IMG/VR virus record: IMGVR_UViG_3300042450_000471
Span: 1-38,493 of that record
DNA: 38,493 nucleotides
Reading direction: 5' to 3' (one strand)
Source: a virus
A model generated the notes under the pieces. It had not been told where the DNA came from and did no database searches. It saw nothing but the letters and a program-made list of their open reading frames with translations. Positions 1 through 38,493 of this stretch are shown here, piece after piece; position 1 is the first letter of the stretch; each line of letters begins with the position of its first letter. The position numbers and the translations under genes are program-made.

Positions 1-99
1 AGATTGCGGAGGTAGACTTAAAGAAGCACACATATGTCCATTCGTAGATGCTATAGGAATCGAACTAACTACTGATGGATTAAATGTTACTTCATCACT
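1..99 (+). repeat. 99-bp exact repeat of 35737-35835 (window ends overlap)
   Basis: The first 99 bases are identical to 35737-35835 and the first mismatch is at 100/35836. Beyond it the copies diverge. 99 is a standard de Bruijn k-mer size, so this looks like the overlap at an assembly-graph branch. Confidence 0.85.
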
Positions 100-463
100 A
101 TCTAAGAAGTATACTCAAGGTATGTCCTTTGTCTATAATGTAAATTGTGATAGAGAAAGTTGGTTATGTTCAATTGGTGGATTAATGGCTATGCCTTTAG
201 CATATGCTACTGCGGTAGAAATCTTTAACTATGCCTTGACCATCTCACCTAATCAGAGAGTCAATACTGCGGTATCTATTAACAAGGGTCAAAAAATATT
301 TGCAACTGCTGATGCTACTGAAGGATTGGTTGCTGCACGAGATATAGCACAATCAAGATACAATGATGAGTTAAGTGCAATGTTGACCAATATGAGACTG
401 CCTGATGATAGGCATTGTTTCGATTGCAATAAGAATTATAAATACGTAACTGCACTACCCTGA
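2..463 (+). CDS. Head/neck structural protein, C-terminal part (allele A)
   Basis: The reading frame is open from base 2 and matches the C-terminal half of the complete protein at 35153-36166, so the gene is cut by the window edge. Joined in frame to 35153-35736 it would give about 348 residues. It lies directly after the capsid gene on the circular map, so a capsid-associated or head-tail connection role is inferred; I recognise no domain. Cysteines are conserved in both copies (DCGG, HICPF, NCDRESWLC, HCFDCN), which suggests metal binding or disulfides. Against allele B it carries an insertion of about 11 residues near IFATADATEG. Most other differences are silent. Confidence 0.75.
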   Translation, partial: DCGGRLKEAHICPFVDAIGIELTTDGLNVTSSLSKKYTQGMSFVYNVNCDRESWLCSIGGLMAMPLAYATAVEIFNYALTISPNQRVNTAVSINKGQKIFATADATEGLVAARDIAQSRYNDELSAMLTNMRLPDDRHCFDCNKNYKYVTALP

Positions 464-1062
464 TGCCTACGATTAAGGAAATGAACGAACGAATGGATGC
501 ACTCAATAAAGAGTGGTTGACTAAGTTTGTACCTTTATACAAGGCTGGTTCAAACTTAAAGAGGGAAATGTATAAGAGGATATTTGGTGCTGGTAATAAG
601 GGTGGATTTAATACTGCTATGCAAGAATTACCTACCATAGGATATTCTACAAAACCTATATATGTTGACCCTAAGTCAGTTCGAAATGCACCAGCATCAT
701 TTAAGTTTGGTAAATCAACTACTGATTCAAAGGGTAAAAAAAAGAAAGGCAAACCTATCAAGTCATTATACTTTCCTGAAGGATATGCTCAGTTGAAATC
801 TAAGACATCTGCAAAATTACCTCTTCAGTTAAGTGGTAATCTTAAAGGTGGATTTTTTAAATCAGAGGTAGTTAAAGATGGTCTATCAGTTTCCGTAACA
901 TTACCTGATTCTGAAACATTAAAAGTAGAAGGATTACAATATGGTCACGGCACATTTCAAGGATATGGTGATATATTTTTACCCACAGAAATTGAAGAAA
1001 AGGAGTTCTTATTATTACACGGACAATTAGTTGTTGATGCTATAAATGAATATTTAAGATGA
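463..1062 (+). CDS. Putative neck / tail-completion protein (allele A)
   Basis: 199 residues, starting in a TGATG overlap with the upstream stop, so translation is probably coupled. The N-terminus is a short helical, basic stretch. The middle holds a Lys-rich segment (GKKKKGKP), then PLQLSGNLKGG, and a C-terminal part ending near IFLPTEIEEKEFLLL. That pattern (a SG.L segment followed by a proline-led C-terminal helix) recalls gp10-like or virion-morphogenesis tail-completion proteins, and its place between capsid and tail fibre fits. The family assignment is inference. The allele B counterpart is at 36166-36765 with the same length. Confidence 0.5.
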   Translation: MPTIKEMNERMDALNKEWLTKFVPLYKAGSNLKREMYKRIFGAGNKGGFNTAMQELPTIGYSTKPIYVDPKSVRNAPASFKFGKSTTDSKGKKKKGKPIKSLYFPEGYAQLKSKTSAKLPLQLSGNLKGGFFKSEVVKDGLSVSVTLPDSETLKVEGLQYGHGTFQGYGDIFLPTEIEEKEFLLLHGQLVVDAINEYLR

Positions 1063-1604
1063 ACATACTTAAAAGCATAATTGATAGACTTAATGAAAGG
1101 CTTTTAGTCACTAACATATTTGACCAAATCTACCCGATATGTGAAATCAATGCCAATGGATTAGAGAAGGCTTGGGTTCATTACATCGGCAATGGTCAGG
1201 CTGAGGTAGTAACTGATTTCGATGCATACAATGGCACTATCTTTTGGGCAAAGAATGGTAAGGTAAATATGTTCAAGTCAGACAATATTAAAGTTAAAAG
1301 TTGTGATGTTCTATATCAAACATTTATTCCTTTAACTGCTTATGTTGTAGTGAAAAAATCACATCTACCTTGTGACGATGCTTACTCTGAAGACTTCATT
1401 GCATCTCAAGTTATTAATGCACTTGCTGGATTTGATATTGAATTCAAAGAGCAGATGCATCTTATCACATTTGAGGTAGTGCCTAAGTCATATGACAATC
1501 AAGTAAAGACCTTAACATCAAACTATGAATATGCTACATTGACTATTGATTTTGATGTGACATTCCAAATTACAACTAACAATCCTTGTTTTACATACTG
1601 CTAA
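1059..1604 (+). CDS. Neck/tail-terminator-like protein of unknown family (allele A)
   Basis: 181 residues, starting in an ATGA overlap with the preceding gene. I do not recognise the family. The N-terminus is helical, followed by alternating hydrophobic strands (WVHYIGNGQAEVV, GTIFWAKNGKV). It is homologous to the first ~180 residues of the long open frame beginning at 36762, where this domain continues without a stop into a tail fibre. Here the gene stops after a Cys-containing tail (NPCFTYC) and separate adhesin genes follow. A small neck or tail-terminator protein that can serve as fibre attachment domain would explain both arrangements. Confidence 0.5.
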   Translation: MNILKSIIDRLNERLLVTNIFDQIYPICEINANGLEKAWVHYIGNGQAEVVTDFDAYNGTIFWAKNGKVNMFKSDNIKVKSCDVLYQTFIPLTAYVVVKKSHLPCDDAYSEDFIASQVINALAGFDIEFKEQMHLITFEVVPKSYDNQVKTLTSNYEYATLTIDFDVTFQITTNNPCFTYC

Positions 1605-11993: not shown

Positions 11994-12659
11994 ATGAAGA
12001 AATCATTCCTACTATATTGTGACCTAAAGCACACCATCGATAAGTTACCAAATGAAACTGCTGGTAGGTTACTCAAGTTGATTCTTGACTATGCTAATGG
12101 AGACTTCAATGAGCCTGATGACTTATTACTTCAAGTAGTATTTGAGCCTATCAAACAATCATTGATTAGAGACTTAGATAAGTACGATGCTAAAGTAATT
12201 CGTAATAGAGAAAATGGTAGTAAGGGTGGTAGACCATCTAAAGAAGATAACCCACAAAAACCCACTGGGTTAATTAATAACCCACTCAAAGCCAAAAAAG
12301 CCGATAGTGATAATGATAGTGATAATGATAGTGTAAGTGATAATGGTAATGATATTATTAAAATAGCTAAAGCACCATCATTCAAGTCTTATACCCATCA
12401 AGACCTAATCAATCAGATGAAGCCACTAATAGAGAAGTATGGTAAGGATACTTGTAATGCATTCTATTCTTATTGGAGTGAGCCATTAGCCAATGGTAAG
12501 ATGAGATTGACTAATGAGAAGGCTTGGGATACGATGAGAAGACTATCTACTTGGAAACAGAGAGAGAAGCAACCTAATAACAATTATGTCAAACAAGCAC
12601 CAGTAGTCTTCAATCGTTCATCTCAAGGTCAGAAGTATGTAGGTGATGATGTGATTTAA
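11994..12659 (+). CDS. Replication initiator-like protein (DUF6291 / replisome organiser type)
   Basis: 221 residues. The N-terminal domain (KKSFLLYCDLKHTIDKLP, then AGRLLKLILDYANGD) and the linker hinge NGSKGGRP (74-81) are typical of phage DUF6291-like replication proteins. A low-complexity Asp/Asn/Ser linker (about 104-120) leads to a C-terminal domain with FYSYWSEPLANGKMRL and WDTMRRLSTW, the usual DnaD-like partner for helicase loading. DnaB is encoded ~1.5 kb downstream. It sits alone between the structured leader and another promoter, so it is probably tightly controlled. Confidence 0.75.
   Translation: MKKSFLLYCDLKHTIDKLPNETAGRLLKLILDYANGDFNEPDDLLLQVVFEPIKQSLIRDLDKYDAKVIRNRENGSKGGRPSKEDNPQKPTGLINNPLKAKKADSDNDSDNDSVSDNGNDIIKIAKAPSFKSYTHQDLINQMKPLIEKYGKDTCNAFYSYWSEPLANGKMRLTNEKAWDTMRRLSTWKQREKQPNNNYVKQAPVVFNRSSQGQKYVGDDVI
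12303..12355 (+). repeat. In-frame 12-nt tandem repeat in the initiator linker
   Basis: The unit GATAGTGATAAT is repeated twice exactly and then decays (GATAGTG, AGTGATAATG). It encodes Asp-Ser-Asp-Asn units. Changes in copy number would be in frame and would only alter linker length. Confidence 0.7.
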
Positions 12660-23888: not shown

Positions 23889-25846
23889 AATTTCTTATAG
23901 ATGGTCAAGATAGAGGTCAGCCAACAAATGCGATTGATTTTGGATTTACGATATCTGAAGAGCAAGATATTAGAACAAGAATTGTATCATTCAATAATGA
24001 CCTGATATTTAGTGGTCAACTATATAATTATCTTTTTAATTTAATTGCTAATAGTGGTATTTGTAATTTGGTTGATGTTGAAGTTCAATACTACTGCAAT
24101 AATGTTTGGAAGAAATTAGTTGATGGTTATTTGATTGTATCTGAAATAATTTATGATTATGATAAATGCACTTGTAAAACAAAGATGTATGATACATCAT
24201 TTAGTACAAGAATTAATAACAATAAAGACATACCATTCTCATTAAGTAGTTTAGTAACTAAGAATCTTTTCCCTAAACCAGCACCAGCTATAAATCTTAT
24301 CAGGTTCTTCAATTCATCAACTTGTGTACTTGATATGAGTGATGCTAATAGAATTGGTGGTATATCAGTATGGGCAGCATTTAAAAGTTTGATTGAATCA
24401 ATGAGTGATAACTTAATTGATTTCAGGTCAGACTTTTTTAGAATTCAAACATTTGGATTAGCACAAAGAGTAAACTATTGGGTAACTACTGGAAGGAGTA
24501 TAAGACAAAAATCAAATAATACAGATGTTATTATTTCATTTGCTCAATTGTTTCAAGCACTAAATTCAAAACTTAATTTAGGTATTGGCTTTGAACCACA
24601 ATCTAATGGTAGACCATTAATGAGAATTGAACCTATTAGTTATTTCTATCAACAAAACCCATCTGTAAATCTATACGACCAGCCTGATATAACATTGGCA
24701 GTTGATAAGACTCAGTTATATGGCACTATTAGATTAGGTAGTAGCGAATCATTACAATTTGAGGATTGTAATGGGGGTAATTGCACATTTGTACAAACAC
24801 CTATTTATGGATTCCAGCAGCATACATTTGGATTTGTAGGTAATTGTAACAATTCAACATCCTTAGATATAACATCTAAAGAAGTAATTATTGATACAAA
24901 CATTATAGATAATACTTACAGATTAAATGATACATCATATGATGATAATCCATTTATTATTGAAGTAAAATATAGCTTTAATCCTTTCCAACAAATAATT
25001 CAATTTGAGGCAAACAAGCAAGACCCATACAACAATCAAAGATGTTATTATAATATCTCCTTAAACAACTTAGCACAATCATTCAATTGGAGAAATGAGT
25101 TACATAATTCAATCGCAGAATATCAAGCACCTTATCCACCAACATCAACAAATTTTAATGTTAGAAATTCATCTAACTTATCATTTGTAATAACACCTGA
25201 ATCAGCAACTTATTTCGAAACAACTGACCAATACATAAAATATTTAGATGAAGTTTCTGATGTTGGGAATAACTTTTCAGTAGACAAATATGTAGTGCCT
25301 CGTGCTGGTCAATATACATTTGAAGTTGAGTTAGTTACATTTTGTGCAGAAAGTTATTCAATACAAGCAATCATACAAAGATTTAACTCTGATGATATAT
25401 TAGTTGGTCAAGCAATAAGTTCAACGCAAAATAGCACTGGAGGAATATTATCAGTAAATAAAACATTGACTGGTATATTTAATCAAGGTGACATTATAAG
25501 AACTGATTTACAAGCCGTATCAGTAAATGGAGGTAATCAAGTATGTGTACTTCAAAATATCAATAGTGGCAATCCTTGTATCTTCTTTGGTAATGGAACT
25601 CCATTTGAAAATGAATTCCAATTGGTAGACCCTAATGCATCTAAGAAACTATTATACAATTTCAATAGACCATTAACGATGTTTGAAATAGAAAGTATTA
25701 TTGGTAATACATCTAAGCCTATATCATTTGGAAGATATGATGACCCATTAAGAGTTATTAATGGATACATTAAAAAGATAGATGTTAAGAGTGTAGTTCA
25801 GCAAGAAGCAGCAATTCAACTAAAAAGTAATTTGATACTAAGATGA
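23873..25846 (+). CDS. Distal tail / tail-tip protein
   Basis: 657 residues, 16-nt overlap with the tape measure gene. N-terminal domain (IKFLIDGQDRGQPTNAIDFGF, then DLIFSGQLYNYLF) matches a tail-tip protein type seen after the tape measure in phages of this group. The long remainder is Asn/Ser-rich and strand-like. Probably forms the hub of the tail tip, the role of Dit/Tal proteins. Stop overlaps the next start (ATGA). Confidence 0.65.
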   Translation: MAAEIKFLIDGQDRGQPTNAIDFGFTISEEQDIRTRIVSFNNDLIFSGQLYNYLFNLIANSGICNLVDVEVQYYCNNVWKKLVDGYLIVSEIIYDYDKCTCKTKMYDTSFSTRINNNKDIPFSLSSLVTKNLFPKPAPAINLIRFFNSSTCVLDMSDANRIGGISVWAAFKSLIESMSDNLIDFRSDFFRIQTFGLAQRVNYWVTTGRSIRQKSNNTDVIISFAQLFQALNSKLNLGIGFEPQSNGRPLMRIEPISYFYQQNPSVNLYDQPDITLAVDKTQLYGTIRLGSSESLQFEDCNGGNCTFVQTPIYGFQQHTFGFVGNCNNSTSLDITSKEVIIDTNIIDNTYRLNDTSYDDNPFIIEVKYSFNPFQQIIQFEANKQDPYNNQRCYYNISLNNLAQSFNWRNELHNSIAEYQAPYPPTSTNFNVRNSSNLSFVITPESATYFETTDQYIKYLDEVSDVGNNFSVDKYVVPRAGQYTFEVELVTFCAESYSIQAIIQRFNSDDILVGQAISSTQNSTGGILSVNKTLTGIFNQGDIIRTDLQAVSVNGGNQVCVLQNINSGNPCIFFGNGTPFENEFQLVDPNASKKLLYNFNRPLTMFEIESIIGNTSKPISFGRYDDPLRVINGYIKKIDVKSVVQQEAAIQLKSNLILR

Positions 25847-27519
25847 GTTTTAAATCTATACCAAACCAGCCTATTCTCTTTCATACAGAATCAGAATTAG
25901 GAGTTAATTGTAATTGTAATGATGACCAATATGCTCAATTGGTTGACTATGATGACCAATTATTTTTTCAACTAAAGAGTGAGTATTGTGATGAGGCATT
26001 ACTTTCTTTTGAAACATTTGAATTTGGATGGGGTGTACCAAATGAGGAAGGCAATATATGTTCAGTTGTAGATACATCACTTGGTATTCATCTTATTAGT
26101 TTTAGAACATTATACCCTTATCAAACATATCAAATAACATTTAACGTATTGTCACTAAGTAGTGGTGTGTTGAACATATCTTGTGATGGTTCAAATACAT
26201 TTGTTATTTATACTGCTGGGACTTATACATTGAATTTTCAGAATCCAACTATTACACTAAATTCAATAGTATTTAGAATTGAATCGTTTGATGGATTTGT
26301 AGGTTGTATAGATTCTAATGTTGTTGTACACGGAATTCCAACAAGCAATCAATTAAAAGTTGGTTTAGTAGATTCTGTTACTTTAGAACAAGTAGATGTT
26401 ATCAATCCAACTTATATCAATACAGATGATAATGTAACAATTGCTATCAATGTACCAAATCTACAAGTTGGTGATGGATGCTATAGATTAGCAATTGCAG
26501 ACTTTTGTACTAATACTTGCTCCCAATTTTATATTCAAAATAACACATTCTCAGTAGGTCAATTTGGTGTACCTTATTGGAATGTATTCAATGATGCTGG
26601 AGCAATTACATATTTTAATCAAAATCAATTTTGTTTAACAACTAACATTGAAGGTGCAGCAGCATCATTAGTAAATAATAATCAATTCAATCAATTTTGT
26701 GAAGGCAAGTTCTATTACATATCAATTATAGTACAGAATAATGTAAACACTATTATATCTGCAAACATTGGTAATAGTTCAGTAGAATTTCCATATGGAC
26801 AAACTGGATACTTAACAATTGGAATAACTGCTGGGTCTCCTAATCCACTTTATGGAATGAATCTATTTTTCTTTTTTGAGAATGTTAATGGATTAGGTGA
26901 AGTATGTATATCACAAGTTGATGTACAAATTGATGATTCTAACATTCAATGGAACTACTATTCAGATATCATATCAATTGGAGATTATGATGACGATTGT
27001 AAATATTTAAAAGTTGAAGGATGTAATGCTGAAGACCAATTTGGATTTTCATTTGCTGATAGTTCATTCTTACCATCTATAAGATTAGAAGGTATTAGAA
27101 CAAAAGCACAATATGAAAGCAATGCCAATTTGTTTAGGTATTCATCAGGTAAGTGGTACACAAACTATGCAGATATAACTAAGCAATGGACTTATCACTT
27201 TGGCAGACTACCTGAGTATGTACTTGATTTCTTATCTACAATCTTCTATTATGATAACTGCTATGTCAATGGGTTTTTAGTTTCACCAGCAGATGATAAA
27301 TTTCCACAGATTAAGTATGACGATGCTGACCCTAAACTTGGAATGTTTGAAATAGATTTATTGGCAAAAAATAACAAGGTTGTTAAATCGGTTTGTTTCT
27401 CAAGTGATGCACAATGCTTACCATCAATTTTAGATAACCCTGATGAACCATTTTTATTGGCAGAAGATGGTGAAAGATTAATTACTGAAGATGGTGTAAA
27501 TCTGTATCAAGAAAATTAA
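25843..27519 (+). CDS. Tail tip / baseplate-associated protein
   Basis: 558 residues, mostly predicted beta strand, with many Asn, Ser and Cys; probably several jelly-roll-like domains that bind carbohydrate or neighbouring tip proteins (CDGSNTFVIYTAGTYTLNF, GDGCYRLAIADFCTN). The last ~25 residues (EPFLLAEDGERLITEDGVNL) form a short Leu/Glu/Gly motif also present in the -1 frame capsid extension at 35016-35096. Last gene before the tube promoter. Confidence 0.6.
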   Translation: MSFKSIPNQPILFHTESELGVNCNCNDDQYAQLVDYDDQLFFQLKSEYCDEALLSFETFEFGWGVPNEEGNICSVVDTSLGIHLISFRTLYPYQTYQITFNVLSLSSGVLNISCDGSNTFVIYTAGTYTLNFQNPTITLNSIVFRIESFDGFVGCIDSNVVVHGIPTSNQLKVGLVDSVTLEQVDVINPTYINTDDNVTIAINVPNLQVGDGCYRLAIADFCTNTCSQFYIQNNTFSVGQFGVPYWNVFNDAGAITYFNQNQFCLTTNIEGAAASLVNNNQFNQFCEGKFYYISIIVQNNVNTIISANIGNSSVEFPYGQTGYLTIGITAGSPNPLYGMNLFFFFENVNGLGEVCISQVDVQIDDSNIQWNYYSDIISIGDYDDDCKYLKVEGCNAEDQFGFSFADSSFLPSIRLEGIRTKAQYESNANLFRYSSGKWYTNYADITKQWTYHFGRLPEYVLDFLSTIFYYDNCYVNGFLVSPADDKFPQIKYDDADPKLGMFEIDLLAKNNKVVKSVCFSSDAQCLPSILDNPDEPFLLAEDGERLITEDGVNLYQEN

Positions 27520-27606: not shown

Positions 27607-28146
27607 ATGGGCTGTGCCTCGTATTGCGAAACTGGTCTCGAAACCCACGATTTAGTGGCTTGTGGAGAGTACAAACTTGGTGGAGTTTCCGCCATTATAA
27701 TTGGTGCTTGTGGAGCGGTCTTAGTAGACCCAACACAACCAGCAGAGATTGAAGAAATGCTAATTAGTGGTGATGCAGTTTTAATTCAAGATATTCGATT
27801 TGCACTACCAGCTGGTTCACCAATTCAGGTGGATTCACCAGTAGGTTGTGGTACACAGATTCGTATCAATGAAGACCGAACTGCTACATTATATGATGCT
27901 AACGTAACTGACCAAAATAATGTATTTTATAACTCATTGAATCAGCAAAAGATTGGATGGATTATGGCATACTTATGTGACTCAGGTAAGGTTATCTACA
28001 TTGACCCACCAGTTGGAATCACAACTTCTGCTAACTTCATTATACCTGAGCAGAATAACGAACTTCAAAGATATGAAGTTACATTCTCTTGGAGACAAAA
28101 GTCTATTCCTACTCAATTCGCAGCACCAGCTGGTATCTTCGGATAA
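27607..28146 (+). CDS. Putative major tail tube protein
   Basis: 179 residues, strand-rich, with a Cys-containing N-terminus (MGCASYCETGLETHDLVACG) and a final RYEVTFSWRQKSIP strand. Size, its own promoter with a long leader like that of the capsid gene, and placement in the tail operon fit the tube subunit. I cannot identify the family from sequence alone. Stop and next start overlap (TAATG). Confidence 0.55.
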   Translation: MGCASYCETGLETHDLVACGEYKLGGVSAIIIGACGAVLVDPTQPAEIEEMLISGDAVLIQDIRFALPAGSPIQVDSPVGCGTQIRINEDRTATLYDANVTDQNNVFYNSLNQQKIGWIMAYLCDSGKVIYIDPPVGITTSANFIIPEQNNELQRYEVTFSWRQKSIPTQFAAPAGIFG

Positions 28147-29099
28147 TGAGTGAGGAGATAACTACTAACGATAATGCCACATCCTCTAATGAGGGTGTGG
28201 TACTATTTGCGTTCGGCAAGGCTGGATACTATCAAGCAGCATATAACCTTGCCTATTCAATCAAGCACTATTCACCATCAGTAAAGATTGCACTCTTTGT
28301 TGATGATATTAACAAGTGCAACAATGCAACATATGACATTGATAAGTATGTTGACTCAATATCACAATTCGAAAATTCAGACCTATACAATGAAGGTAAA
28401 TTTGACCCAGCATTGTTGAAGTCTTCCATATATAAGTATCTGCCATTTAAAAACAATCTATATCTTGATGTAGATGCAGTATGCCTCAAAGACATTCAGC
28501 CACTCATTGATGATTTAGTTAGTACAAAGAGGCACTACATAAGCCATTGCTTGGGATATCATACCATTGATTTGGGTCGTGCTATCCCTTCAATGGTTTG
28601 GGCATATGCTGATGACATTTGGCAGCATTTCAATTTAAACAAAGATTCAATATTACCATCAATCAATAGTAGTCTTCAGTTTATAAAGAAGTGCAAAGAG
28701 TCTTATGATTTATTTGGTGTGATGAGAATACTTTATACCACCAATCAACTGCCATTAAATAGACTAAGAAGTAAATGGGGTGGTGGTCAGCCTGACGAAC
28801 TCTATATGAATGTTGCTTTGGCAATGACTGCTTATGACCCATCATACAAGAATGGAGATAAGGTAGGTGAAAAAGAATCTGAGAGTGGGTTCATTCACTT
28901 CGCACCAGTTCGTGGTTTATCGTTTCAAGAAGTCATAGATAATTATTACTTTCAATCATACTATGGTGGTCGCAATTATACCTCAAGATTCTATACTGAA
29001 TGGCTTGAGAGACTTCTAAAGTTTATGATGAAAGCAGAAAAGAAAGTACATCAGTTTCATATTGATAGAATCATTGGTCATAAATACGTAAACAAATGA
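28146..29099 (+). CDS. Glycosyltransferase (GT-A, DxD)
   Basis: 317 residues from ATG 28146. VVLFAFGKAGYYQAAYNLA at the start, KIALFVDD, and the metal/nucleotide-sugar motif LYLDVDAVC (DVD 108-110), then a C-terminal domain with WGGGQPDELYMN. This is a typical GT-A layout. It lies between tail tube and portal genes and is coupled to a methyltransferase gene (ATGA overlap), so it may decorate virion proteins or host surface glycans. Acceptor unknown. Confidence 0.75.
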   Translation: MSEEITTNDNATSSNEGVVLFAFGKAGYYQAAYNLAYSIKHYSPSVKIALFVDDINKCNNATYDIDKYVDSISQFENSDLYNEGKFDPALLKSSIYKYLPFKNNLYLDVDAVCLKDIQPLIDDLVSTKRHYISHCLGYHTIDLGRAIPSMVWAYADDIWQHFNLNKDSILPSINSSLQFIKKCKESYDLFGVMRILYTTNQLPLNRLRSKWGGGQPDELYMNVALAMTAYDPSYKNGDKVGEKESESGFIHFAPVRGLSFQEVIDNYYFQSYYGGRNYTSRFYTEWLERLLKFMMKAEKKVHQFHIDRIIGHKYVNK

Positions 29100-29704
29100 A
29101 AGATACTACTACCAAAAAACCGAAAGGCAGACCTAAGAAGGTCACTACAGAAGCAGAGGTGAAACCAACTGAAATAGTTACTACTGCAACATTTAAAGAA
29201 GTTGCACGACACGAATGGAACTCTGAGATAGAAGTTGGTGAGTTCTTAGCATCACTTGTTAAGATGAGCAAGTACAAGACCATTCTTGAGATTGGTGTGT
29301 TTGAAGGTGAGACATCACAAGCCTTGATTAAATCATTACCTCAAGGAGGACAATATATTGGTATTGATATTAATGACTATCGTACAGATGCAACCAAGTT
29401 GTATATGAAAGAGGGTGGTAAGTCAATTGACTTTATCTTGGGTAACTCTCACAATGAATTAAAGAATCTACCAACTGCTCACTTTGATTTAATCTTTGTT
29501 GATGGAGACCACTCTTGGGCATCTATCTTACCTGAGTTTAAGTTGGTTGAGAAGTTGGTTAGTAAAGGAGGTATGATTGTATACCACGATACCATCCATC
29601 TTGAAGCACCTAAGAGACTTGTTGCTCATACTGCAAACTATAGATACAAAGCAGTAACTTTGAACACACCTGAAGGTCGGGGGTTATCAATTTTACATAA
29701 ATAA
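29096..29704 (+). CDS. Class I SAM methyltransferase (Methyltransf_24-like)
   Basis: 202 residues. A basic N-terminal extension with KKPKGRPKK (AT-hook-like, 7-15) precedes the Rossmann core: motif I ILEIGVFEGE (63-72), YIGIDIND (87-94), DLIFVDGDHSW (131-141) and GGMIVYHDT. DGDH.W is typical of sugar or small-molecule O-methyltransferases. Coupled to the glycosyltransferase, so methylation of a transferred sugar is the simplest guess. Confidence 0.82.
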   Translation: MKDTTTKKPKGRPKKVTTEAEVKPTEIVTTATFKEVARHEWNSEIEVGEFLASLVKMSKYKTILEIGVFEGETSQALIKSLPQGGQYIGIDINDYRTDATKLYMKEGGKSIDFILGNSHNELKNLPTAHFDLIFVDGDHSWASILPEFKLVEKLVSKGGMIVYHDTIHLEAPKRLVAHTANYRYKAVTLNTPEGRGLSILHK

Positions 29705-32901: not shown

Positions 32902-33610
32902 AGAGTTATCTTCAAAGATTGGAAGAGTAACTGGTAGCATTACTAATGTTGCACGTAAGGCATTTGAGCCATTTGGCATTGTACTAACAGAAGATGATTT
33001 CAAAGATAAGAAGGTTGAGGAGGTACTTAGGAGTGCATCAGAGAGAGCCAAAGAATCATTTGAGGCACAACGTGAAGAGTGGGAGAAGAGAGCATCAGGC
33101 AATGGCTCTGAGACCTTAATCAAGGAGTGGGAGTCTAAGTACAAGTCACTTGAGAAGAAACATAATGATGTGGATTCTGCAAGGCAAGATGTAATGAATC
33201 AGTTCGAATCATATAAGACTAAAGTCAAAGAAGAGACTAAGGTGTCAACCATCAATAACATCTTTGAGAAAGAACTTACTGCTATCAAGATTGACCCATC
33301 TGTATCTGACATTACTCTTAGAGGGTTCAAATCAGTCATTGCAGAGAAGTATGTTATAGACCTTGAAGACGATGGTAATGCAATTGTGAAGGATAAGAAA
33401 AGTGGAGAGAGATTAAAATCAACTGCTAAGGCTGGTTCATTTTTAGGTATCAATGATGTCTTATTGAAGGAAGCAACTGATGCTGGAATCATACAAAAAA
33501 ATGTTCATCAAGGTAAAATTGTGAATCAAAAAGGTGCATATATTCCAGCACTTGAGACGGCACAAAACAACAAAACTAAATCAGTAAACCCACGTTTTTT
33601 GGGTATGTAA
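32795..33610 (+). CDS. Putative capsid scaffolding protein
   Basis: 271 residues, acidic/basic alternating and mainly coiled coil (about 70-160: SASERAKESFEAQREEWEKR, then SLEKKHNDVDSARQD). The C-terminal domain ends SVNPRFLGM. Placement just upstream of the capsid gene, composition and size match phage scaffolds that template procapsid assembly. No protease domain is visible. A terminator and promoter region separate it from the capsid gene. Confidence 0.7.
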   Translation: MKEAEALELVKFLNLESAESIEEAKEKFTQQWIKSEELSSKIGRVTGSITNVARKAFEPFGIVLTEDDFKDKKVEEVLRSASERAKESFEAQREEWEKRASGNGSETLIKEWESKYKSLEKKHNDVDSARQDVMNQFESYKTKVKEETKVSTINNIFEKELTAIKIDPSVSDITLRGFKSVIAEKYVIDLEDDGNAIVKDKKSGERLKSTAKAGSFLGINDVLLKEATDAGIIQKNVHQGKIVNQKGAYIPALETAQNNKTKSVNPRFLGM

Positions 33611-33975: not shown

Positions 33976-35019
33976 ATGTCAATTTCTCGTATACTTTCGG
34001 AATGCCCGAATATCCAAGCACCACTTGGTCAACTCTTCATTGAGGTTGGTCAACGTGAGTCATTACCTTTTCTTGAGTATCTTAACTCCCCTGAAAACGT
34101 AAAATTAATTCGTCAACAAGTTTCTGCTGGAAACGGAAAACTAAGAACCATTGAAGCACGATGGATTCAAAGATTACCTGAATCAGAAGTTATTGCTGCT
34201 GCTGATATCAGTAATTGTAGTGCTACTAATGTGTATGGTGATTCTACTGAGACTTACACCCTTGAGACCACAGATACATACCAAGCATCTCAGTTAATCT
34301 CAGGAGCAGATATTGCTCGTCATTGCCAAGAGAATAGTGTTTACTTCCTTGAGTCAGTAATGAGACTTATGGATGTAATTGACCGCAAGGTTGCATCAGT
34401 TGCTGCTGCACAAGCAGTTGCTGCTATTGGTTCTTGGGGTACAGATGTTGAAGACTTCTATGAAATGGATGGTGACTGCTTAGAGATTACCACTATCAAT
34501 GGTACTAATGAAGTTAACCCATTTGCTCTTGCTGATATCACTCAAGCTACTGCAATGGCTAACTACCCAGCAGCACCAATTGCTTTTGGTGGTGCAGCAA
34601 TGCAACGCTACGCAAATGCAGTTAAGGCTGGATGCTGCTCAACAAGTGGTATTGATTTATTAGCAATCTCTCAACAGAATGGTTTCGGTTTTGCTTACGA
34701 TTCTCGTGTAGCTGCTGCACAAACTGACCAAACTCACGCATTGGTAACTACTGCTGGAGCAATCCAATGGTTATCTTATAACCTTGCTGAGTGGAACTCA
34801 AACTTCACACCATCAGTAGGTGCTGGTTACTCACGTACAATTGCATTCACACCAGCTGGTGTACCAGTTGACCTTACCCTTAAAGATGATTGTGGTAACC
34901 TTTCAGTTATCGTAACTGCTACTGGTAAGATTGTTACTCTACCAACTGACATCTACGAGGCTGGAGATAAGTTTGCTGGTGTTAACTATGTGAATTGCGT
35001 TTCAATTGTAAACCCGTAG
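33976..35019 (+). CDS. Major capsid protein (frame-0 product)
   Basis: 347 residues. N-terminal ISRILSECPNIQAPLGQLF, then EARWIQRLPESEV, a helical segment (VIDRKVASVAAAQAV) and an Ala/Gly-rich body. It sits after the scaffold and has its own promoter, long leader and terminator, as expected for the most abundant protein. I assign it by position, size and composition. The last codons (AAC CCG TAG) form A AAC CCG followed by a stop and a hairpin, and the -1 frame continues for 26 codons, so a longer form is likely. Confidence 0.8.
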   Translation: MSISRILSECPNIQAPLGQLFIEVGQRESLPFLEYLNSPENVKLIRQQVSAGNGKLRTIEARWIQRLPESEVIAAADISNCSATNVYGDSTETYTLETTDTYQASQLISGADIARHCQENSVYFLESVMRLMDVIDRKVASVAAAQAVAAIGSWGTDVEDFYEMDGDCLEITTINGTNEVNPFALADITQATAMANYPAAPIAFGGAAMQRYANAVKAGCCSTSGIDLLAISQQNGFGFAYDSRVAAAQTDQTHALVTTAGAIQWLSYNLAEWNSNFTPSVGAGYSRTIAFTPAGVPVDLTLKDDCGNLSVIVTATGKIVTLPTDIYEAGDKFAGVNYVNCVSIVNP

Positions 35020-35067
35020 CAGACCCGCAATTTCTACTGAGTGAAAACTTAGATGAATTGCTGGGTC
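35010..35067 (+). promoter_or_regulatory. Candidate -1 frameshift signal at the capsid stop
   Basis: A AAC CCG (35010-35016) in slippery phase, the frame-0 TAG next, a 5-nt spacer, then an 11-bp stem (35022-35032 with 35056-35067, one bulged T) and a 23-nt loop. Confidence 0.55.
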
Positions 35068-35096
35068 AGAATGGTGACAATTTACTATCACAATAA
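35016..35096 (+). CDS. -1 frame C-terminal extension of the capsid protein
   Basis: The -1 frame reads 26 residues, VADPQFLLSENLDELLGQ and then NGDNLLSQ, before TAA. The piece FLL.E...ELL.QNGDNL resembles the C-terminal end of the tail protein at 25843 (FLLAEDGERLITEDGVNL), which supports real coding. Either programmed frameshifting makes a minor long capsid protein, or a recent indel truncated a normally longer one. Confidence 0.5.
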   Translation, partial: VADPQFLLSENLDELLGQNGDNLLSQ

Positions 35097-35101
35097 TTGA
35101 G

Positions 35102-35130
35102 GGGAAGGTTATTAATGCCTTCCCTTTTTT
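35102..35130 (+). terminator. Intrinsic terminator after the capsid gene
   Basis: GGGAAGG (35102-35108) pairs with CCTTCCC (35118-35124), followed by six T. 5 nt after the -1 frame stop, not the frame-0 stop, which also fits a longer coding region. Confidence 0.8.
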
Positions 35131-35152: not shown

Positions 35153-36166
35153 ATGTGCTTTGAAAAACTTGTAGGTTTGAAAGGCTGCTCAATCTCTGAA
35201 CCAACTACTGGTTTGTATATAGATGACTTGGGCATTAACACCTCTCTGTTAGGTCAATTAATCACAGACCAATATACAAGTGGTGTAGAACTATTTGAAG
35301 GCAAGAGAGCCTTTGCTTGGAGGAAATTGTCAAGTGATATTCTGACTCGTCTTCAAGCAACAATGAAAGCAGATACTATCATTGAAAATAAACGAATTGG
35401 TCAAGTATTAACTAATGCATCTAATGTTGACCTTGCACTTGGTGCTGGAAGATATGCTGGTATCAGAGTTAAGATAGACCCAAACAATACCTCATTCTTG
35501 AACTTCTATCTGAGTCAATTACAGATAGACATATATACAATGCAGACACCAGTAGAAATATTGGTCTTTGATATGTCAACCCTTAGATTAATTGATTCAT
35601 TCGATTATCAAAGTGAGGCAGTAGAAGAGTTCATTGGTAAGACTTTCAAGGCAAAGAGAAGGAAGTTAGATTTAGCATTCGTCTATGAGTCACTCTATGA
35701 CACCACCAAAATGATTACTAAGAAAGGTGCTTGTACAGATTGCGGAGGTAGACTTAAAGAAGCACACATATGTCCATTCGTAGATGCTATAGGAATCGAA
35801 CTAACTACTGATGGATTAAATGTTACTTCATCACTTTCTAAGAAGTATACTCAAGGTATGTCCTTTGTCTATAACGTAAATTGTGATAGAGAAAGTTGGT
35901 TGTGTTCTATTGGTGGTCTAATGGCTATGCCTTTAGCATATTCAACTGCAATTGAAATATATGATTATGCTCTTACAATTGCACCTAACAAGAGAGTGAA
36001 TACATCTGTATCAATTAATGTTGAAGGAATAACTCAAGCACGAGATATAGCTGCAACAAGATACAATGAAGAGTTAGGTGCAATGCTCACTAATATGAGA
36101 TTGCCTGACGATAGACATTGCTTTGACTGCAATAAGAATTACAAGTATGTAACTGCTCTACCCTGA
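35153..36166 (+). CDS. Head/neck structural protein (complete, allele B 3' part)
   Basis: 337 residues (MCFEKLVGLKGCSISEP...). The first 584 nt are unique in the window. The 3' part from 35836 is a diverged version of 100-463. Cys-rich C-terminal half (CTDCGGRLKEAHICPF, SWLCSIGG, HCFDCNKN). Follows the capsid gene; connector or capsid-associated role inferred. A TAACTTTA at 35132-35139 could be a weak -7 element. Lacks the ~11-residue insertion of allele A. Confidence 0.7.
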   Translation: MCFEKLVGLKGCSISEPTTGLYIDDLGINTSLLGQLITDQYTSGVELFEGKRAFAWRKLSSDILTRLQATMKADTIIENKRIGQVLTNASNVDLALGAGRYAGIRVKIDPNNTSFLNFYLSQLQIDIYTMQTPVEILVFDMSTLRLIDSFDYQSEAVEEFIGKTFKAKRRKLDLAFVYESLYDTTKMITKKGACTDCGGRLKEAHICPFVDAIGIELTTDGLNVTSSLSKKYTQGMSFVYNVNCDRESWLCSIGGLMAMPLAYSTAIEIYDYALTIAPNKRVNTSVSINVEGITQARDIAATRYNEELGAMLTNMRLPDDRHCFDCNKNYKYVTALP

Positions 36167-36765
36167 TGCCTACGATTAAGGAAATGAACGCACGTATGGA
36201 TGCACTCAATAAAGAATGGTTGACTAATTTTAAACCACTTTATCGTGCTGGTAATAACTTAAAGAGGGTAATGTTCAAACGTATATTTGGCAAAGGTAAT
36301 AGTGGTGGATATAATACTGCTATGCAAAGTTTACCAACATTTTCCTATTCAACAACACCTATCTATGTTGACCCTAAATCAGTAAGAAATGCACCAGCAT
36401 CATTCAAGTTTGGTAAATCAACTATTGATAGCAAAGGGAAAACTAAGAAAGGTAAACCAATTAAGTCATTATACTTTGCTGGTGGTTATGCTGAACTAAA
36501 GACTAAGACATCTGCTACTTTACCATTGCAATTAACTGGTAATTTAAAAGGTGGATTCTTACAATCAGAAGTAATTAAAGATGGTCTTTCAGTTAGTGTA
36601 ACATTGCCCGATTCAGAGGTAGATAAAGCAGAAGGGTTAGAGTTAGGTAATAGAAACTTTAAAGGGTATGGTATAATTTTCCAACCTACTGATATGGAAG
36701 AAGAAGAGTTCTTATTACTGCACGGGCAATATGTTGTTGATGTTATAAATGAACTATTGAAATGA
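36166..36765 (+). CDS. Putative neck / tail-completion protein (allele B)
   Basis: 199 residues, aligned end to end with the protein at 463-1062 without length change. Conserved blocks include VDPKSVRNAPASFKFGKST and LPLQLTGNLKGGF. Differences are concentrated at third codon positions and in the middle and near the C-terminus (VDKAEGLELGNRNFKG). Same TGATG start overlap. Function inferred from position, as for the other copy. Confidence 0.5.
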   Translation: MPTIKEMNARMDALNKEWLTNFKPLYRAGNNLKRVMFKRIFGKGNSGGYNTAMQSLPTFSYSTTPIYVDPKSVRNAPASFKFGKSTIDSKGKTKKGKPIKSLYFAGGYAELKTKTSATLPLQLTGNLKGGFLQSEVIKDGLSVSVTLPDSEVDKAEGLELGNRNFKGYGIIFQPTDMEEEEFLLLHGQYVVDVINELLK

Positions 36766-38493
36766 ACCTACTTAAAACGATAATAGAGAGACTGAATCAA
36801 AGGGTAGAGGTAGCTAATATCTTTGACCAAATCTACCCACTATGTGAACTCAATGCAAACGGCAATGACAAAGCATGGGTACATTATATTGGTAATGGTC
36901 AGGCTGAGGTAGTAACTAATTTCGATGCTAAACAAGGAACTCTATTTTGGGCAAAACGTGGTAAGGTATCTGTAACTAAAACTGAATCATTGAAGGTTAG
37001 TGGGTGTAAGTCATTGTACTTAACAACATTTCCTTTAACTGCCTATGCAGTAGTAAGAAAATCACATTTACCTTGTGATTCAGAAGACTCTCAAGACTGG
37101 ATAGCATCACGAATCTATAGATTAATAAGTGGAACTGATACTGATTTCAAAAGTGCAATAGGTGTAATCCAATATGAGGTAATACCTAATGGTTATGTTA
37201 ATGAGATAAAGTCATTGACTGCTAACTATGAGTGGGCTTGTGTTGCAGTAGATGTTGATGTGGCAGTTGTTAGTGCATCTGAAGATGGTTGTTATGATGT
37301 ATGCGCAACTGGTGACATTCCACTACCCGACTTTCAACCATGTACACCATGTCTTACAGAGGTAGCAGTAGATGGTGTGACCATCATTGGTAATGGTACA
37401 ACTGCTGACCCATTGGTTGCAATAGGAGGCGGCGGCGGTGGTGGTATAATGACTGCCATTGCATTCTCAACTGACCATCTTACCTCAACTGGCAATCAGT
37501 ATGTGATAGGCAATGTTGTTTGGTACAATGGAAACATCTACCGATGTATTGCTGCTAATGATTCACTACTACCAACCAACACTACCTATTGGACAAGTCT
37601 TGGAGCAGGATTCCAAACTATTGAAAGGCCTGCCGATTGGACATCATCAAGCGGCAACAATCAGATTCTTAACAAGCCAACAATACCAGCAGCACAAGTT
37701 AACTCAGATTGGAACTCTACAAGCGGAGTAAGTGAGATTTTAAACAAACCTACTATTCCAATTTTACCAGCAACAATAGTTGAAGATGTTACTGCAACTG
37801 CACCAATGTCTTCAACTGGTGGTACAACACCTGACATATCAATTACTCAAGCAGATGGTACTACAGATGGCTATTTAAGTTCTACAGATTGGAATACATT
37901 TGATGGTAAATTTAATGTACCAACGGGTACAATTACAGATTACTTAGATGGTTTAGGAACTCCAACACCATTTCCAACTATACCAACTGGTAGTGTTACA
38001 TCTGTAGATTTAACAATGCCTACTGCATTTTCTGTTACTGGTAATCCAATTACAACAAGTGGTACATTAGCGGTAAGTGCAAATGGTTTATCTACTCAGT
38101 ATATTCGTGGAGATGGTCAACTTGCAACTCTACCAAGCAATGCAAGTGGTGGCTCTGCTGTTAGCTACTACCTCAACGGGGGTACTGCTGCATCGGTAGC
38201 CACATACTTTCAGATGAGCCAAATTGCGGTGGTAGGAACTAACATAGACTTCACTAAGGCAGGGAACGGGCTAATCAGCCAATGGCTGACAGATGTTGGT
38301 GACCCGAATCGATTAGAGATACCAGCAGGGAATTGGAACTTCGAGATATTTATGTCTGCTTCTTCGGCAGGGGGTACGCCAGCGTTCTACGTTGAGTTGT
38401 TAAAATATGATGGTATAACATTCACTACAATCGCTAATAGTTCATTAGTACCTGAGGCGATAACAGGGGGCACAATCATTGACCTTTACTTGA
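36762..38493 (+). CDS. Neck-domain / tail-fibre fusion protein (allele B, runs off the window)
   Basis: Open for 577 codons with no stop at the window edge. Residues 1-~180 match the stand-alone protein at 1059-1604. Then come a Cys-bearing segment (CATGDIPLPDFQPCTPC), a Gly7 hinge (222-228), a carbohydrate-module-like WYNGNIYRC region, two copies of a DW.S.SG...ILNKPTIP repeat and an SVDLTMPTAFSV / ITTSGTLAV segment, all common in tail fibres. Last is a tip module (SYYLNGGTAASVATYF, PAGNWNFEIFMSAS) with visibly higher G+C. Predicted trimeric receptor-binding fibre. Confidence 0.8.
   Translation, partial: MNLLKTIIERLNQRVEVANIFDQIYPLCELNANGNDKAWVHYIGNGQAEVVTNFDAKQGTLFWAKRGKVSVTKTESLKVSGCKSLYLTTFPLTAYAVVRKSHLPCDSEDSQDWIASRIYRLISGTDTDFKSAIGVIQYEVIPNGYVNEIKSLTANYEWACVAVDVDVAVVSASEDGCYDVCATGDIPLPDFQPCTPCLTEVAVDGVTIIGNGTTADPLVAIGGGGGGGIMTAIAFSTDHLTSTGNQYVIGNVVWYNGNIYRCIAANDSLLPTNTTYWTSLGAGFQTIERPADWTSSSGNNQILNKPTIPAAQVNSDWNSTSGVSEILNKPTIPILPATIVEDVTATAPMSSTGGTTPDISITQADGTTDGYLSSTDWNTFDGKFNVPTGTITDYLDGLGTPTPFPTIPTGSVTSVDLTMPTAFSVTGNPITTSGTLAVSANGLSTQYIRGDGQLATLPSNASGGSAVSYYLNGGTAASVATYFQMSQIAVVGTNIDFTKAGNGLISQWLTDVGDPNRLEIPAGNWNFEIFMSASSAGGTPAFYVELLKYDGITFTTIANSSLVPEAITGGTIIDLYL
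37632..37760 (+). repeat. Two DW..SG..ILNKPTIP fibre repeats
   Basis: Two units of about 18 residues, starting at the DW codons near 37635 and 37707, each ending ILNKPTIP. This short repeat recurs in many phage fibres and is a common recombination point between them. Confidence 0.75.

Follow-up and report, generated by a model that had tools for sequence, protein, structure and literature searches.

The probable major capsid gene of this phage very probably ends in a −1 programmed ribosomal frameshift cassette, as predicted from comparison of its sequence with those of relatives. The gene lies in the window, the whole stretch of 38,493 nt of DNA that was analysed. Most ribosomes would terminate at the UAG stop codon to give a protein of 347 residues, and some would pause at a 12-bp hairpin with tRNA-Asn and tRNA-Pro paired to the heptamer A_AAC_CCG. 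The paired tRNAs would then slip back by one base onto AAA_CCC, so that the stop would be bypassed in the −1 frame and 26 residues added. We infer that slipping does occur, that the long form makes up a minority of the virion subunits and that its extra tail is displayed on the surface of the head. The initial annotation had read a −1 frameshift cassette here, and this is supported by a conserved heptamer, its spacing, a covarying stem and selection on the −1 frame. The coordinates it gave for the cassette were exact on re-reading of the sequence.

The probable capsid gene and its 3′ end

The probable major capsid protein gene occupies positions 33976–35019 on the + strand. Its short form is 347 amino acids in length and ends in SIVNP, the DNA reading GTA AAC CCG TAG. 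Upstream are a portal gene (29795, PHROG 7376), a minor head protein gene (31692) and a coiled-coil scaffold-like gene (32795), and a connector-like gene (35153) lies downstream. Head modules of tailed phages are arranged in this way, and on this basis the gene at 33976 is likely to encode the major capsid protein. The identity is inferred from gene order because the product has no family or fold match: none was found in PHROGs, Pfam, PDB or INPHARED, none in GTDB genomes, and none by profile comparison with the virion proteins of phages P12002L and P2559S. An AlphaFold2 model made with 28 relatives in the input had a pLDDT of 34, too poor for fold assignment. The distant matches of the portal are the portal genes of Polaribacter phage P12002L, Croceibacter phage P2559S and Bacteroides phages, and this similarity points to a Bacteroidota host for what is an uncultured phage family.

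Two other features of the window were observed. The start of the window (1–1528) and a section near its end (35737–37231) are mutual repeats with 77.6% identity; this is a self-overlap of the contig with a diverged copy, arising either from two co-assembled strains or from a duplicated connector block. Between the tail and portal genes (28089–29704) there are two genes that by eye are glycosyltransferase-like and methyltransferase-like; their products could be modifiers of virion proteins.

The slip heptamer A_AAC_CCG, of the form X_XXY_YYZ, is located at 35010–35016 (+ strand) and is in phase with the capsid reading frame. The zero-frame stop UAG (35017–35019, + strand) follows it directly. 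The −1 frame extension (35016–35096, + strand) comprises 26 codons and a UAA, VADPQFLLSENLDELLGQNGDNLLSQ, beginning with a valine whose codon is at 35016 and continuing to a glutamine ending at 35093, with the UAA at 35094–35096. The predicted junction peptide reads ...NPVADPQFLLSE.... Beyond it a stem resembling an intrinsic terminator (GGGAAGG/CCTTCCC with a T run; 35102–35127, + strand) was read from the sequence. In all these respects the cassette is as first described, including the phase of the heptamer, the 26 open codons and a −1 stop placed 5 nt ahead of the terminator stem. The heptamer had also been described as not among the strongest, and it is not named among the highly shift-prone Escherichia coli heptamers (PMC5009743).

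The predicted stimulatory stem-loop is at 35022–35067 on the + strand, with arms at 35022–35033 and 35055–35067 that form 12 bp with one bulged U. It has a minimum free energy of −25.8 kcal/mol and z = −3.73 compared with dinucleotide shuffles. The 11-bp stem-loop proposed at first is thus present, and is 1 bp longer than was stated. The stem begins 5 nt past the heptamer, within the range of 5–9 nt for −1 frameshift cassettes. The initial annotation was correct on this distance; its order of stop, 5-nt spacer and stem was not, since the spacer contains the stop and only 2 nt separate stop from stem. When synonymous codons for the same peptide were resampled the natural stem was the stronger (z = −3.1, 1/300), and this was so in all 14 of the representatives compared in the same manner (z from −1.6 to −5.4). 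A stem stronger than these synonymous-codon nulls indicates a constraint on the RNA in addition to that imposed by the encoded peptide.

Other occurrences of the slip sequence in the window were considered. AAACCCR at 12258 and 27641 was rejected as out of phase. The site at 24655 is in phase and was rejected because its −1 frame is short, running 8 codons past the slip. A further site, A_AAC_CCA at 33586 close to the 3′ terminus of the scaffold-like gene, is in phase, is not conserved and is not accompanied by a conserved −1 frame; it can be taken as an internal negative control for the cassette at 35010. Transcriptional slippage was also rejected, there being no long homopolymer at the slip site.

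Conservation, gain and loss, and a probable alternative route to the extension

About 200 relatives were collected in six IMG/VR scans, the first of which gave 77. After removal of duplicates there were 161 distinct 3′ ends, with capsid sequences mostly 61–94% identical. These comprise 120 with a −1 extension of the LLxE type, three with a −1 extension of the FQ type, six in which the motif follows a UGA in frame and 32 that have no extension. The frameshift arrangement is therefore kept in 123 of the 161, and because of this a chance origin of the cassette can be excluded. The heptamer, the stem and the −1 frame are all retained, as the initial annotation would require.

The −1 frame is open in these relatives and is under purifying selection. 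Over the extension dN/dS is 0.21–0.23 in the −1 frame compared with 0.7–2.0 in the other two frames, both of which contain stops in every sequence. The extension of the window is an LLxE-type repeat of 26 residues (25–27 in nearly all relatives) rather than an Ig-like domain. When it and the related motif of the tail protein (see below) were used as tblastn queries against phages no match was found, both queries being short. The −1 frame might be the relic of a C-terminus that was formerly in frame, or the product of a sequencing or assembly indel, and there are indeed relatives that have no extension whatever. Such an origin is extremely improbable given 123 distinct contigs with the same arrangement, a dN/dS of ~0.2 and a covarying stem. 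A sequencing indel in particular is excluded because none of the 123 cassette-bearing relatives has one continuous frame.

The stem is also conserved as a structure. Both sides of the pairing have changed in 109 cells, compared with 34.7 expected from shuffles, and pairing is 82.5%, falling to at most 54.5% when the partner strand is slid. The modal offset between heptamer and stem is 5 nt (47 of 87 distinct relatives), and the stems of two relatives gave z = −8.1 (L023) and −5.2 (L031). In one clade the register is bulged, so that no single consensus stem captures all relatives. The FQ-type relatives have a hairpin at the same position with another sequence, where the evidence is weaker (z from −0.8 to −2.6). 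Their −1 repeat, unrelated to the LLxE type, was observed behind the same A AAC CCG UAA (L151, 2537–2635; L152 and L153, 3542–3640).

At the slip site CCCR is found in all 123 ends that carry the −1 extension compared with 4 of the 32 that have none (Fisher test, 7e-27). The association also holds when the capsid tree is taken into account, with 14 independent pairs drawn from its supported branches (sign test, p ~5e-4). The complete A AAC CCR is present in 117 of the 123. The remaining six lack the A_AA part (five GTC CCG UAA and one GCC CCG UAA), and all retain CCCG with the stop directly 3′ to it. This suggests that tRNA-Pro alone may slip next to a stop codon. It raises the alternative that slippage generally involves a single tRNA, with the P-site tRNA-Pro moving from CCG or CCA to CCC when the A site contains the stop codon; A_AA would then only assist, and the same extension would be made. 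The immediate adjacency of UAA or UAG to the slip site in 115 of the 123 ends is consistent with this. In the other eight a sense codon (TCA, TCT or GCA) follows CCG, so that the stop is displaced by one codon. These eight keep the full A AAC CCG, which fits two-tRNA slipping, and their distance from heptamer to stem is unchanged. The conserved quantity is thus the position of the slip relative to the stem and not to the stop. We regard general one-tRNA slippage as possible though rather unlikely. For the six relatives lacking A_AA, either a one-tRNA slip beside the stop would suffice or the sites are weak. Four ends (L112, L210, L085 and L217) have A AAC CCR and no extension, probably as a result of recent losses.

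The extension has been gained or lost repeatedly, with at least 14 changes of state on supported branches. Sister pairs with and without it, having capsid DNA that is 92–97% identical, differ by one clean block of ~80 nt. The block is bounded by the final codons of the capsid gene and by the terminator, and the sequences on either side of it are almost identical. Phages that lack the block have in most cases an altered slip site as well. The pattern fits exchange by recombination, and the absence of the block from closely related phages shows that the extension is dispensable. Gain and loss as a unit would also be expected of a recombination-prone element, so the hairpin could serve some other purpose as an RNA or DNA element (RNA stability, attenuation or a recombination hotspot) and the open −1 frame be a coincidence. 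That would leave unexplained why the −1 frame is under purifying selection, why CCCR is lost alongside the extension, and why a sister clade carries the motif of the extension in frame downstream of a UGA; it can be given very little weight.

This sister clade lies on a single branch of the tree inside the frameshifting relatives, and its capsids are 84–85% identical to that of the window. In its members (L017, L019–L022, L093 and L163, with six distinct ends) the capsid frame ends in UGA-A and then continues in frame with ITELNLLTEDGSDLTTE..LLV, the extension being 23–24 residues in length. It is likely that these phages make the extension by stop-codon readthrough, a route that is predicted from the reading frame. 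Reassignment of UGA was considered and rejected: in G001, the contig of L019, UGA is an ordinary stop that ends 13 of 31 long open reading frames, counting this gene, and no tRNA genes were detected in that contig. Both predicted modes of recoding and the absence of the extension are therefore found within one capsid family, with 84–95% identity between the modes.

The extension could in principle be a small protein translated separately, if ribosomes reinitiated once past the capsid stop. Reinitiation of this kind is frequent in phage operons, and in L017 an ATG does follow the UGA. In L019–L022, L093 and L163 the corresponding codon is ATA, so reinitiation fails to explain the clade. More generally, there is no start codon at a shared position ahead of the first LL in the extensions listed, and the slip site would be left without explanation. 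We consider reinitiation highly improbable.

A motif shared with a tail protein

The gene at 25843–27519 on the + strand encodes a tail protein of 558 amino acids with β-sandwich domains of the carbohydrate-binding-module type, as judged by AlphaFold2 and Foldseek. The model has a pLDDT of 75.5, falling below 50 for residues 513–558, which are probably a flexible tail. Foldseek matched it to carbohydrate-binding-type β-sandwich proteins and to phage tail and baseplate proteins, with overall TM-scores that were all low; the top viral match was Polaribacter phage P12002S.

The low-confidence C-terminus of this protein carries DEPFLLAEDGERLITEDGVNLYQEN, which is the motif of the capsid extension encoded in the normal frame. 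The resemblance had been noted in the initial annotation, and alignment of the extension profile with the tail-protein C-terminus by hhalign supports it (94.5%, E = 7.6e-8, 23 columns). A C-terminal DEPFLLxxDxxRLxTEDxVNLYQE is present on the tail protein in the relatives read, including phages that lack the capsid extension. The two proteins also correspond within genomes. The G034 phage combines an FQ-type extension on the capsid with a tail protein that terminates in KIFQDTNPFIFQDGEYFGFN, and LLLENGD is found on both the capsid extension and the tail protein of the G035 phage. It was observed separately that the genome of L153, with an FQ-type extension, has a tail protein (L262) that also ends in an FQDG-type motif. 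A partial Mantel test controlled for capsid and tail-body distance gave r = 0.37 (p = 0.001, n = 27) between extension and tail motif. With the odd types removed r was 0.19 (p = 0.02), indicating weak co-variation within a type.

The capsid extension is a three-strand repeat like that at the flexible end of the tail protein, and this makes a surface tag on head and tail its most likely role. Two proteins with a shared, co-varying tag suggest a common binding partner, an idea drawn from the similarity of the motifs; a ligand on the host surface or a component of the virion could be such a partner. We tentatively propose, as one possibility, that the capsid extension and the tail C-terminus are matched display tags for one partner that co-evolve in each genome (LLxE, LLLENGD and FQDG types), the capsid copy being an exchangeable cassette that is expressed by −1 frameshifting or UGA readthrough, or is dropped. 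Gene conversion between the capsid and tail loci is another possible source of the shared motif.

Relation to known recoding systems

Capsid frameshifting itself is of a known kind, by analogy with gene 10 of phages T7 and T3 and with Listeria phages. In T7 and T3 −1 frameshifting at the end of the capsid gene produces the C-terminally extended minor protein 10B beside the major 10A (PMC5009743), in agreement with a remark in the initial annotation that T7 and others make a minor capsid form in this way; the equivalent here is predicted. The T7 site has G_GU as its X_XX and makes use of a distant terminator element (PMC5009743), whereas here A_AAC_CCR abuts the stop and the hairpin is local. 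The T3 extension is Ig-like while the present one is a 26-residue repeat, and no sequence relationship to T7 or T3 gene 10 was found. Frameshifting at the capsid gene is also known from Listeria phages A118, A500 and PSA, and in the Listeria tail shaft gene slipping occurs at a proline codon adjoining a stop, (AAA) CCC_UGA (PMC5009743). The PSA capsid and tail shaft genes shift by +1, in contrast to the −1 shift predicted here on CCG or CCA next to UAA or UAG. The A118, A500 and PSA sequences are unrelated as far as tested. Ig-like domains on phage structural proteins are likewise optional surface modules, added by frameshifting or in frame (PMC5009743), but at 25–27 residues the present extension is too short for an Ig fold and it matches the flexible C-terminus of a tail protein.

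The Qβ A1 protein is a readthrough product of the coat gene. The UGA subgroup (L017–L022, L093 and L163) has the same layout of coat-type gene, UGA and in-frame extension, but in contigs of double-stranded DNA tailed phages, with an extension of 23–24 residues and readthrough that is predicted. Among retroviruses the Gag-Pol products of related viruses are made by either frameshifting or stop readthrough (PMC5009743); in the present case both modes, and absence, occur inside one phage capsid family.

The exact case was not found in literature searches, which covered few subscription journals, and A_AAC_CCR next to a stop is missing as a slip site from the review PMC5009743. New here are the slip site and its adjacency to the stop, an extension made of a short repeat, the predicted switch to UGA readthrough within the family and the match to the tail protein. 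Together they provide a natural example of capsid recoding, replicated in many relatives and well supported by comparison, in an uncultured phage family, where one capsid family has the same extension by two predicted recoding routes and has repeatedly lost it. The purpose of minor capsid forms has been a standing question since T7 10B. It becomes testable by comparing sister phages distinguished by a single 80-nt block, and the resemblance of the extension to the tail-protein C-terminus provides a concrete hypothesis for its function.
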